DNA of 64,000 nucleotides, taken from positions 1 through 64,000 of the forward strand of contig JAGBCB010000044.1 in NCBI GenBank assembly GCA_017938145.1. Reading direction: 5' to 3'. Below the pieces are notes generated by a model, which saw nothing but the letters and a program-made list of their open reading frames with translations, did not search any database and was not told where the DNA came from. Positions within the stretch are counted from its first letter, which is position 1. Each line of letters begins with the position of its first letter. Positions 22,930 to 56,827 of the stretch are shown piece after piece. The position numbers and the translations under genes were made by a program. The stretch comes from Lachnospiraceae bacterium (GTDB lineage Bacteria > Bacillota > Clostridia > Lachnospirales > Lachnospiraceae).

Positions 22930-23187
22930 TAGTTAAATGTAATGATGAAGAGGAGTAGGCAACACAGAGCTATCCCAGAGAGCGGACCATATGCTGAGAG
23001 GTCTGTATAGTGAATTTGCTGAAGGTAGCTTCGGAACAGTATTTCTGAAAAGCAATGAGTAGGAAATACCGGCTCACACCGTTATCCGTGACGTCTGTGT
23101 CAGCAGACAATGAGGCAGTAGAAATACTGTGAAAAAAGGTGGTACCACGAATGACCCGTCGTCCTTTTAGGATGTCGGGTCTTTTTA
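22930..23187 (+). ncRNA. T-box riboswitch controlling valS
   Basis: The leader has the T-box landmarks in order. Stem I elements AGAGAG and GCTGAGAGGTC are near 22975-23003, and a likely specifier GTA (Val) lies at 23025-23027 in GAAGGTAGCTTC. The invariant T-box GGTGGTACCACG is at 23138-23149, with TGGT to pair with the tRNA 3' end. A terminator stem GACCCG/CGGGTC with a T run ends at 23186. Uncharged tRNA-Val should stabilise the antiterminator and allow read-through into valS. The exact specifier is read from alignment by eye. Confidence 0.93.
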
Positions 23188-54049: not shown

Positions 54050-55847
54050 ATTCAGTACGACAAGAAAAGCACTGCGTGTTTACGCAGCATATAATCCGAA
54101 CTATTTTCCGCTGCTTTTATTGCAGACGATATTCAAGAATTTGTCTCCATATTTCAATCTTTGGATGTCGGCAGAAATTGTAACACTATTGTATGAAGCA
54201 AGTGACCGGGCGGAAATTTATAAGATGGTGCTTGTGACAATTTTGGGCAACCTGCTTATCCACATCATTGGTGCGGCACTGACCAAAAGTGTAAATACCC
54301 AGCTGGAAATTTTAAATAATAACGAAGCGGCTGCCTTTAACCACAAAACGCTGTCCTTGGATTATGACAAGCTGGAAAATCCGGAAATCCGTCAGCACAG
54401 ACGTAACATTAAGGAAAATGCGTATATCAATTACTATGGTGTTGTAAGTATGCGCTTAGCTGTAGAATGGCTTTTTGATTGTACCATCAATCTGGTGTTC
54501 GCCTTAGTGCTTTTTGCGGAAATGGTGACACTGATTGGTGCTGCCGGCTTTCAATGGCCGGGTGTGGTTTTATTGGTGTTGTTGGTTGCCATGGTGGCAT
54601 TCAATATCTATTTTCAGTCCGTACATTCAGGGAAAACGTCCGTTGCCTGGAATGAAGTCGGAAAACTGATGTTAGAGGAAAACCGCTTAGGCAGAGGGTA
54701 CAGCAGAAGCGGTATGGATAACCGCATTTACCGTCAGCAGCTACTTATGGATAAGCTGAACAAAAAGATGGAAAAACGTCATCGGGAGGTATTTTCCAAG
54801 GTTCATGCGCTTAGCTTTCAGTATTCGGTGCCGGTGGTATTCTTTCAGCGTATGTCAGAGCTGGTATCGTATCTGATTATCTGCTTTTACTGTGTGCTTG
54901 GGGCATTCCCGATTGGCGGTGTCATTAAGTATGTGGGGTATCTTTCGAAGGTTACCTCCAGTGTGGGAAATTTGTTCTACTGTTTCGGTGAAATGGTTGC
55001 AAATGAAAAATTCCTTAAGGTGTATTTGGACTATTTTGATATTAAGAATGATATGTATCAGGGAAGCCTCGCTGTAGAAAAGCGGAGCGATAAGCAGTAT
55101 GATGTGGAATTTAAGAACGTAAGCTTTCAGTATCCGGGAACCGAGCAGTTTGCCCTGAAAAATATCAACCTGAATCTGAAGGTGGGTGAACGCCTTGCGG
55201 TGGTCGGAATGAACGGTAGCGGAAAAACAACCTTTATCAAGCTGTTATGCCGTTTGTATGACCCGACGGAGGGTGAGATTAAGATGAATGATTTTAACAT
55301 CCGCAAGTACGATTACCGCCAGTATCTGGATATCTTTTCGGTTGTATTTCAGGATTATCATTTGCTTGCCATGCCCCTTGGCAATAATGTGGCATCCGCA
55401 GAAAACTGGGATACAGAAAAAGCAGAACGCTTGCTGGAAGAAGTAGGATTTGGAGCACGGTATGCCGAAATGCCAAAGAAACTGGAAACGCCGCTTTATA
55501 AAAACTTTGATGAAGACGGTGTCAATATTTCCGGTGGTGAAGCACAGAAGATTGCTCTGGCAAGAGCCCTTTACAAAGATGCTCCGTTTATCGTTCTGGA
55601 TGAGCCTACAGCGGCACTGGACCCGATTGCGGAAGCAGAAATTTATGCAAAATTTGATGAAATTGTAGGGGATAAAACGGCGATTTATATCAGCCATCGT
55701 CTGTCTTCCTGCCGCTTCTGTGATAAGATTGCGGTATTTGACAAGGGTGAAATTGTACAGGTTGGAACCCACGAAGAACTGTTACAGAATGAAAAGGGTA
55801 AGTACTATGAACTTTGGACTGCCCAGGCACAGTATTATACCACATAG
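54042..55847 (+). CDS. ABC exporter, fused permease-ATPase (module 2, second subunit)
   Basis: 601 residues, overlapping its partner by 8 bp. Six membrane segments then an ATPase with GMNGSGKTT, ISGGEAQKIALARAL and PFIVLDEPTAALDP. The linker MYQGSLAVEKRSDKQYDVEF is nearly the same as MYQGSLTTEKRSDRNYEVEF in module 1, strong evidence that the two cassettes share an ancestor. Last gene of the module; a promoter for the next transcript begins about 40 bp after its stop. Confidence 0.9.
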   Translation: MRKFSTTRKALRVYAAYNPNYFPLLLLQTIFKNLSPYFNLWMSAEIVTLLYEASDRAEIYKMVLVTILGNLLIHIIGAALTKSVNTQLEILNNNEAAAFNHKTLSLDYDKLENPEIRQHRRNIKENAYINYYGVVSMRLAVEWLFDCTINLVFALVLFAEMVTLIGAAGFQWPGVVLLVLLVAMVAFNIYFQSVHSGKTSVAWNEVGKLMLEENRLGRGYSRSGMDNRIYRQQLLMDKLNKKMEKRHREVFSKVHALSFQYSVPVVFFQRMSELVSYLIICFYCVLGAFPIGGVIKYVGYLSKVTSSVGNLFYCFGEMVANEKFLKVYLDYFDIKNDMYQGSLAVEKRSDKQYDVEFKNVSFQYPGTEQFALKNINLNLKVGERLAVVGMNGSGKTTFIKLLCRLYDPTEGEIKMNDFNIRKYDYRQYLDIFSVVFQDYHLLAMPLGNNVASAENWDTEKAERLLEEVGFGARYAEMPKKLETPLYKNFDEDGVNISGGEAQKIALARALYKDAPFIVLDEPTAALDPIAEAEIYAKFDEIVGDKTAIYISHRLSSCRFCDKIAVFDKGEIVQVGTHEELLQNEKGKYYELWTAQAQYYTT

Positions 55848-55887
55848 TTATGTGTTGTATGAACTATATAATTTGCTAGAAAAACTA

Positions 55888-55916
55888 TTGATATTTTATT
55901 CTAAATCGCTTATACT
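55888..55916 (+). promoter_or_regulatory. Promoter of the candidate structured RNA
   Basis: TTGATA (55888-55893) and TATACT (55911-55916) with a 17-bp spacer. Transcription would start near 55923, with no open reading frame following before a terminator 190 bases on. Confidence 0.75.
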
Positions 55917-55973
55917 ATTATTAGAAGAGCGTGCTCTTTCCGGTGGACTAACACCTTAATCTGAATTTTTAAT

Positions 55974-56061
55974 GGACGTAAGCGCCAGTGGTTGACAGGC
56001 AACCCAAAAACCTGTTTCGTAACGGACGTAAGCGCCGAAGGTTGAGCAGACAACCCAAAAA
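55974..56061 (+). repeat. Two tandem copies of a 37-38-nt RNA module
   Basis: Copy 1 (55974-56010) and copy 2 (56024-56061) share GGACGTAAGCGCC, the stem GGTTG...CAACC and CAAAAA, with a 50-nt period. The differences fall in the 3-nt linker and the hairpin loop (ACAGG against AGCAGA), that is, in expected single-stranded positions. Confidence 0.8.
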
Positions 56062-56070
56062 TTAGTCATT

Positions 56071-56112
56071 AAAAGGGAGTGAGCGTTACTGCGGTAGCGT
56101 CTCTCCCTTTTT
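56071..56112 (+). terminator. Intrinsic terminator of the candidate RNA
   Basis: GGGAG (56075-56079) pairs with CTCCC and CGTTAC pairs with GTAGCG around a TGCG loop; T5 follows at 56108-56112. Confidence 0.85.
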
Positions 56113-56179
56113 AAATTCATGTGTTCTGATAATTCAGTAAAAAATCCCCAAGCAAATTATATGAAATGAGGTACAAAGG

Positions 56180-56827
56180 ATGGAGTATACCCTGAAACAA
56201 GCGGTAAGTGTAGCAATTAAGTGTGGAAGAGAATATAAGAGAAAACTGGCAAATACGAAATTATTAGTTATATATCGTAATAGGGAAAATAGCGAGATTG
56301 AGTCAATTGAAATAGTATTCCGACCATCAAATTTTCAGCATTTGACGGGATTGCAGTTACTGGATAAACAAGGGAAACAAAAACAGAATTGTGCAGTAGA
56401 GTTTTATCATAAATGTACCGGAAATAATTTGAATATTGCAGAAGTACGGTTTAAAGATGACGGAACAACTCCCCTGAAATTGGATGCCCTTCCAAGTCTT
56501 ATGGATTTGACGAATATAACAAAAATTATTGGTGATTACGATGAATCAAAGAAGTGGATGGAAGCGGATGTAATTGTCGGTGGAATAAACTTTTGTCTTG
56601 CGGTATCAGAAGATAAAGATGGAAGTTATTTTCCTCGTTCGGGTTTGCTTGAAGATATTAGAAATATTACGAGAAAATCATCACAAGTCCTGGCAATTTT
56701 TCAGAAGAAATTAAGTGATAAGGAAGTTTATAAGAAGATATGTTATGTGGCGAAAGGTTTGAATCTTTCAAATTTGAATTTACCTTCGGATATTTCAGAA
56801 CAAGTAAATGTACCAGAGAAAAAATAA
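56180..56827 (+). CDS. PBECR4-like putative nuclease-domain protein
   Basis: 215 residues, soluble, no signal peptide. The pattern FRPSNFQHLTGLQLL, then an alpha-helix with FYHKCTGNNL, then DALPSLMDLTNITKIIGDY and a strand pair ending GINFCLAVSEDKDGSYFPRS, resembles the PBECR4 family of phage-related RNase/toxin-fold proteins; this assignment is from memory. The conserved-looking His and Lys near FQHLTG and FYHK could be catalytic. The base composition is AT-rich relative to flanking genes, and a stable GC-rich hairpin follows. It may be a remnant of a mobile element. Confidence 0.5.
   Translation: MEYTLKQAVSVAIKCGREYKRKLANTKLLVIYRNRENSEIESIEIVFRPSNFQHLTGLQLLDKQGKQKQNCAVEFYHKCTGNNLNIAEVRFKDDGTTPLKLDALPSLMDLTNITKIIGDYDESKKWMEADVIVGGINFCLAVSEDKDGSYFPRSGLLEDIRNITRKSSQVLAIFQKKLSDKEVYKKICYVAKGLNLSNLNLPSDISEQVNVPEKK

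Follow-up and report, generated by a model that had tools for sequence, protein, structure and literature searches.

Type III toxin-antitoxin systems are laid out as a promoter, RNA repeats, a Rho-independent terminator and an endoribonuclease gene, the order found in both ToxIN and TenpIN (PMC5086642). In the CptIN system of Eubacterium rectale, approximately two repeats of 45–50 nt give a pseudoknotted RNA 5′ of the toxin gene, and the complex is 2:2, with two RNA units (PMC4627078). A similar layout with an unrelated toxin, AbiF with its RNA RCd22, is experimentally supported (PMC12373285). Here, we analyze a 64,000-nucleotide stretch of Lachnospiraceae DNA (assembly GCA_017938145.1, contig JAGBCB010000044.1, positions 1 to 64,000; hereafter the window), in which a predicted RNA of ~190 nt, which we term type A, precedes a gene encoding a protein with a PBECR4 domain. 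PBECR domains form a phage-associated clade of BECR-fold RNases, most families of which have an active-site histidine and a C-terminal threonine or serine (PMC5512222). The type A RNA is pseudoknotted, with three covarying pseudoknots, and is linked to PBECR4 genes in the order RNA, terminator, gene. We consider it likely that RNA and gene form one toxin-antitoxin operon working like a type III system, and our analysis suggests that the pair represents an undescribed kind of toxin-antitoxin system.

All features of the locus lie on the forward strand. A predicted sigma-70-like promoter, TTGATA-17-TATACT (55888–55916), agrees with the consensus at 10 of 12 positions in a consensus scan; it is the single promoter-like match on either strand of 55840–56200, where 0.8 would be expected by chance, and none lies between the terminator and the gene. 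The predicted antitoxin RNA spans 55923–56112, as delimited by the promoter position, a covariance model match and the terminator. The predicted intrinsic terminator, an inverted repeat at 56071–56112 between the RNA and the toxin gene, forms a hairpin of −23 kcal/mol (z −6.1, reached by 0 of 200 shuffles). A consensus terminator scanner did not report this hairpin, and the region 55900–56120 as a whole has a folding z of −2.9. The only open reading frame of at least 60 amino acids that reaches into the RNA region is a GTG frame at 55720–55959, which overlaps the end of the ABC gene in another frame. The PBECR4 gene (56180–56827, 215 amino acids) starts 67 nt past the terminator, with a likely ribosome-binding site, GAGG, read from the sequence at 56168–56171, 8 nt 5′ of the ATG. 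An earlier reading of this DNA, made from its letters and hereafter called the sequence-only reading, had proposed the promoter, the strong terminator, the lack of coding potential and two modules at a 50-nt period, all of which are borne out here. Its view that nothing downstream looks like a regulated gene was wrong, since the PBECR4 gene begins there. The structured RNA without coding potential that it described, with a terminator of its own, is upheld by covariation as conserved. It does not stand alone, however: in the window, as in many relatives, it is coupled to a PBECR4 gene that lies downstream.

Type A RNAs share a common order of elements: a hairpin H0 with loop L0, an A-run and a tail T0, followed by two repeats, each consisting of a V hairpin, an H hairpin, an A-run and a tail. 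Of 22 type A RNAs extracted, 18 (without L046, L049, L051 and L055) make up alignment A3, whose covariance model, R1, scores 55942–56067 at 91.5 bits, the window RNA being one of its 18 source sequences. In the window, H0 is GGTG-GACTAA-CACC (55942–55955; covariation helices 1 and 2), with L0 at 55946–55951, and T0 is TCTG (55960–55963; helix 3 and the matrix test described below). Repeat 1 (55970–56010; helices 4 and 5) comprises V1 (GGACGTAAGCGCC, 55974–55986), H1 (55990–56004, with loop L1, ACAGG, at 55995–55999) and an A-run, and is followed by tail T1, CCTGT (56011–56015; helix 6). Repeat 2 (56020–56060; helices 7 and 8) comprises V2 (56024–56036), H2 (56040–56055, whose loop contains CAGA, L2, at 56047–56050) and an A-run, and is followed by tail T2, TTAGTC (56062–56067; helix 2). 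The two 41-nt repeats start 50 nt apart and are 73% identical, and two repeat units are also present in the relatives aligned in A3. The 13-mer GGACGTAAGCGCC has exact copies only in V1 and V2 within its own assembly (78% complete); when up to two mismatches are allowed, two copies in the window are unsurprising by themselves (0.63 expected; 15 of 100 shuffles reach two).

Three loop-tail pairings join these elements: L0 GACTAA with T2 TTAGTC, L1 ACAGG with T1 CCTGT and L2 CAGA with T0 TCTG. Across the 18 sequences of A3, 95.8% of 612 cells are paired, and changes on both sides are seen in 21 of 34 pairs; 78 cells carry such changes, which none of 500 shuffles matches. With slid partners as controls, pairing falls to 26–52%. 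Further pair types stand out less, their number being reached by 28 of 500 shuffles. Pairing is poorest in the V1 helix, at 85.2% of cells, and in the window V1 itself pairs out of register with the alignment. A matrix test of all loop-tail combinations covered 19 of the 22 RNAs (without L046, L049 and L055), 14 of them distinct, with T0 of L015 misparsed relative to its reading by eye. In this test, L0 with T2, L1 with T1 and L2 with T0 alone beat shuffling (0 of 2,000 each), and the six other combinations do not rise above it, either here or in RNAs outside A3. The three pairings replicate among 16 RNAs outside A3, of which 15 were parsed (13 distinct), a set that is without L119, counts L128 although it is misparsed, and includes some close relatives of A3 rows. 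Compensation is illustrated by GGTTGA/TCAACC, GGCTAA/TTAGCC and TGCTGA/TCAGCA for L0 with T2, and by CAGG/CCTG, GGAG/CTCC and CGGA/TCCG for L1 with T1. One-repeat type A RNAs occur at L047 and L123, adjoining a shortened or interrupted toxin gene.

These comparisons bear on several further proposals of the sequence-only reading. The pseudoknot between ACAGG and CCTGT is present and covaries in relatives. The two-module structure was right as far as it was seen; the modules in fact belong to a larger network with three hairpins and as many pseudoknots. A closing stem of TTTTAATG with CATTAAAA fares less well: judged by eye, T2 is retained in relatives, whereas the complementary flank is missing from most of them. 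Of the trans-acting or structural role that it favored, trans action is likely. Its suggestion of a known class such as raiA falls, as no Rfam family matches the RNA. At the RNA region, the search up to E 10 returned four weak, implausible matches, none at gathering score and none to raiA, and the model of drum RNA (RF02958, cut-off 43 bits) has no match in the window. Membership of type A RNA in an Rfam family was rejected, with no match for the window RNA, for six type A loci (E ≤ 0.5) or for L126–L128. The sole gathering-score Rfam match in the window is a T-box leader at 22933–23169 (RF00230, 129.6 bits).

The product of the downstream gene matches PF18813, the PBECR4 family, at E 4.3e-29 (102.7 bits, cut-off 27). 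All 16 aligned type A partners match PF18813, the sole Pfam family common to the 16, and all keep the histidine of an NF.HLTG motif and a P-x-S/T motif. In the window protein, His54 and Ser154 match the active site predicted for PBECR domains, if they may be equated, as we infer, with the residues given in PMC5512222. A ToxN-type toxin was rejected by sequence: no ToxN-type family appears in the Pfam listing, and no solved chain was matched up to E 10.

Linkage of RNA and gene was assessed in 397 sampled genomes of the same family, Lachnospiraceae, some of them incomplete. PF18813 is found at 97 places, spread over 72 genomes and with each fragment of a broken gene counted by itself, and R1 at 47 places in 38 genomes. 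Of the 47 R1 places, 24 are followed on the same strand, at a distance of 53–205 nt, by a PBECR4 place. Within 500 nt of the 89 R1 and drum places, no PBECR4 place lies upstream or on the opposite strand. When the search starts from the protein, with four close toxins scanned against named genome contigs, eight relatives are found (L130–L132 already in A3, five outside it), and an R1 RNA lies upstream of all eight. Distances between RNAs and between toxins are correlated across 13 loci (Mantel r 0.51, 0 of 10,000 permutations). A DNA search with the RNA gives matches in eight of the 397 genomes, including its own, two of which (G066 and G335) are 28 and 22 nt only. A loose detector of terminators upstream of PBECR4 (84 of 97 places) gives 57 of 61 for intact genes with enough upstream DNA, 18 of 22 for broken or short genes and 27 of 46 for window genes. 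The comparison is weak, and its 46 window genes count the PBECR4 gene of the window itself; of the four intact genes that the detector missed, three (L038, L046 and L049) show a hairpin by eye. The window's own genome (G000) has two further PBECR4 places, C72:42871-43490 and C25:48048-49569, one of which follows a type A RNA of 121.8 bits and has a frame shortened to 159 amino acids, the other following a different RNA class. Two genomes have a second type A copy approximately 1.2–1.6 kb from the first (L046/L049 and L122/L124), on the opposite strand and before a predicted lipoprotein gene.

The arrangement also occurs on mobile elements. In the Erysipelothrix phage phi1605 (MF172979.1), an RNA scoring 70.5 bits precedes an interrupted PBECR4 gene, and both inspection by eye and the automatic parse give the pairings GCTTGA with TCAAGC (L0), TTGG with CCAA (L1) and CAAG with CTTG (L2). 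On the Enterococcus faecium plasmid NZ_OR234015.1, an RNA of 62.7 bits, with CAGG/CCTG, CGAG/CTCG and CAAG/CTTG pairings by eye, is followed by a gene annotated as 'PBECR4 domain-containing protein'. A 784-nt RNA-plus-gene unit matches 79 plasmid records, 77 of them over at least 80% of its length, and 56 of the 79 are typed as conjugative; by tblastn, the L016 toxin finds 80 plasmids, 74 of Enterococcus. A Pediococcus pentosaceus plasmid carries an RNA of 54.5 bits (CAAG/CTTG, CTGA/TCAG and CTGG/CCAG by eye), and four such records are present in the plasmid collection. A one-repeat variant, missed by R1, was recognized by eye on a Lachnospira eligens megaplasmid. As a query, the window protein finds no plasmid and one phage, phi1605; the window RNA as a DNA query finds no phage record, a drum-type toxin finds no phage, and scans of viral contigs with two toxin alignments find no relative. 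In a phylum-wide sample, PF18813 is present in 3 of 279 genomes, including the window's own and one of the same family, and among 14 control genomes it is present in Lactococcus lactis only. Given this phylum sample and the plasmid and phage cases, PBECR4 is common in Lachnospiraceae, with mobile outliers.

Type A is one of several RNAs found in this position. Drum RNA, for which we know of no function and which was reportedly first described by Weinberg et al. in 2017, matches 7 of 13 scanned PBECR4 loci at 78–103 bits. At L012, L019, L021, L025, L031, L033 and L039, it stands directly before the PBECR4 gene (at about 1309–1440). In the 397 genomes, drum is found at 42 places in 35 genomes, 40 of them above the cut-off; at 30 of the 42 it lies 14–142 nt 5′ of a same-strand PBECR4 place, the same layout as in the window, and one of the other 12 is at a contig end. 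Together, drum and type A RNAs precede 54 of the 97 PBECR4 places, and drum is a candidate for another type of PBECR4 antitoxin. Upstream of PBECR4 at L062, L069, L071, L072, L074, L075 and L078 are two to three tandem units of 32–33 nt that resemble H-type pseudoknots, in a layout much like that of ToxI. Their stem is GGTC/GACC, and the loop GGAACAG can pair with CTGTTCC in four of the seven loci; in the remaining loci the loop-tail pairing is by eye shorter or bulged, and in L071 it is not evident. At least four more structured-looking RNA classes are seen by eye before PBECR4, at L042/L043/L045/L060/L061/L063, at L054, at L080/L087 and at L085/L092/L094. Somewhat more guardedly than for the operon itself, we favor the view that PBECR4 is the toxin of a large, unrecognized RNA-antitoxin superfamily employing several unrelated RNAs (the type A network, drum, the tandem 32-nt pseudoknots and several more), with type A at least also carried by conjugative plasmids and a phage.

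The type III-like layout, together with the AbiF/RCd22 precedent, leads us to propose an RNA antitoxin that binds the PBECR4 RNase and keeps it inactive. Transcription would start at the one promoter and mostly halt at the terminator, leaving the RNA in excess, and rare read-through would supply the toxin mRNA. Three hairpins, each with an A-tail, would form in the RNA; their loops would pair with tails within the same module and in others, and the resulting closed network would bind the PBECR4 protein and block its presumed toxic RNase activity. By analogy to ToxI and CptI, the RNA may be cut after the A-runs, so that a repeat unit would consist of tail, V hairpin, loop hairpin and A-run. If so, the tail of each unit would reach the other's loop, T1 in unit 2 binding the unit 1 loop and T0 in unit 1 the unit 2 loop, and the two pieces would close into a head-to-tail ring of two. 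The trigger would be loss of the element or takeover of the cell by a phage, either of which would run down the RNA pool and release the RNase.

Some observations sit uneasily with this proposal. No PBECR4 place lies near 23 of the 47 R1 places, and among 12 such loci inspected by tblastn with 16 type A toxins, clear remnants of a toxin gene were found at only three (L112, L114 and L123), directly behind the RNA; none lay upstream, and a match at L122 is the adjacent copy on the other strand. For this reason, some type A RNAs may be relics or serve another role, and at L101 (G123:C2:72020-72151) the gene behind an intact-looking type A RNA is acetyltransferase-like and takes the place of PBECR4. 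Plain co-inheritance alone could also yield the Mantel correlation. The nested minimum-energy fold of the window includes H0, H2, the terminator and ACAGG/CCTGT, but it pairs the two 13-mer copies with each other and omits H1 and the V hairpins, and for this reason the structure rests on comparison rather than on energy. As for the protein, neither sequence nor profile searches (up to E 10) found a solved relative, so its predicted RNase fold rests on the Pfam label, and neither NCBIfam (two proteins queried) nor PADLOC (five queried) recognizes it. The R1 places that lack PBECR4 would also suit an RNA that regulates other genes in trans or has a structural role, with PBECR4 as a mere frequent neighbor through shared mobile elements. 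However, all 24 PBECR4 places within 500 nt of an R1 match lie downstream on the same strand at 53–205 nt, the protein-first search finds the RNA upstream in every case, and the arrangement is repeated on unrelated plasmids and a phage, making simple neighborhood quite improbable.

The position of the RNA invites a different reading, in which it is a cis-acting attenuator or riboswitch whose two folds set terminator read-through into the PBECR4 gene and no protein is bound. It sits immediately 5′ of the gene, has a terminator at its end and would be part of the gene's transcript, and an imperfect inverted repeat, also seen in the energy fold, joins 55962–55975 with 56106–56119 in the terminator tail. 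The covarying core, however, stops at 56067, before the terminator stem (the comparison in relatives covered the core only), and the RNA persists at the three inspected loci where the gene is a remnant. Other PBECR4 genes, moreover, have drum in the same place, an exchange that would be unusual for one sensor and usual for antitoxins, and we regard attenuation as unlikely. The RNA might also serve as a cofactor or guide with which PBECR4 cuts phage RNA, which would make the protein a defense nuclease rather than part of an addiction module, although such a function is compatible with a toxin-antitoxin role. Against it, the loop and tail sequences pair mutually, and no spacer-like variable stretch was noticed, albeit without a search aimed at one; we hold a guide to be very improbable. 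The reading we prefer remains that of an antitoxin RNA and its PBECR4 toxin.

Compared with described systems, this pair shares with type III loci the tandem RNA repeats upstream, a predicted Rho-independent terminator before the toxin gene and a pseudoknotted RNA; a homolog of ToxN, CptN or TenpN is lacking, as judged by sequence. The predicted order of elements is that of ToxIN and TenpIN, whereas the toxin shows no similarity to theirs in Pfam or among solved chains and the RNA network differs. CptN resembles ToxN and Kid, whereas the window toxin matches PBECR4 only, and the H-type pseudoknot of CptI is made up of a single 45-nt unit. In type A, loop-tail pairing extends to other modules as well, and H0, paired with T2, caps the network; the two RNA units of the CptIN complex parallel the ring of two proposed here (PMC4627078). 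AbiF/RCd22 (abiF motif, RF03085) shares two RNA modules and a terminator followed by a toxin gene outside the ToxN family, but AbiF is an Abi_2 protein linked to Cas13, and the RCd22 modules, of 33 and 35 nt, are stem-loops with no cut between them reported in the accessible text (PMC12373285). The PBECR domains of phage polyvalent proteins belong to the same protein family and share the predicted active site; PMC5512222 describes them in phages and mobile elements, either as solo proteins or within multidomain ones, and the term 'RNA antitoxin' is absent from its text. Because the toxin is not ToxN-like by sequence, we assign the pair to none of ToxIN, CptIN and TenpIN and propose instead that it works like a type III system.

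A literature search, outside which lay subscription papers and preprints, returned no paper naming 'PBECR4' and no title or abstract opening that ties PBECR or drum to an RNA antitoxin. Within that search, 'drum RNA' appears in the context of structure prediction and RF02958 in works on RNA structure or Rfam. A transcriptome study of E. faecium mentions plasmid small RNAs and, in its accessible part, not the PBECR4 locus (PMC7724050). An earlier description of the RNA–PBECR4 pair may nevertheless exist.

If the proposal is correct, a toxin family without sequence similarity to ToxN would join the toxin-antitoxin systems that are neutralized by RNA, and drum RNA would gain a testable function. 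A role would also be explained for the PBECR4 proteins of Enterococcus and Pediococcus plasmids. One RNase family paired with many unrelated RNA inhibitors would amount to a natural library of protein-binding RNAs, in which the origin and exchange of RNA antitoxins would become directly testable.
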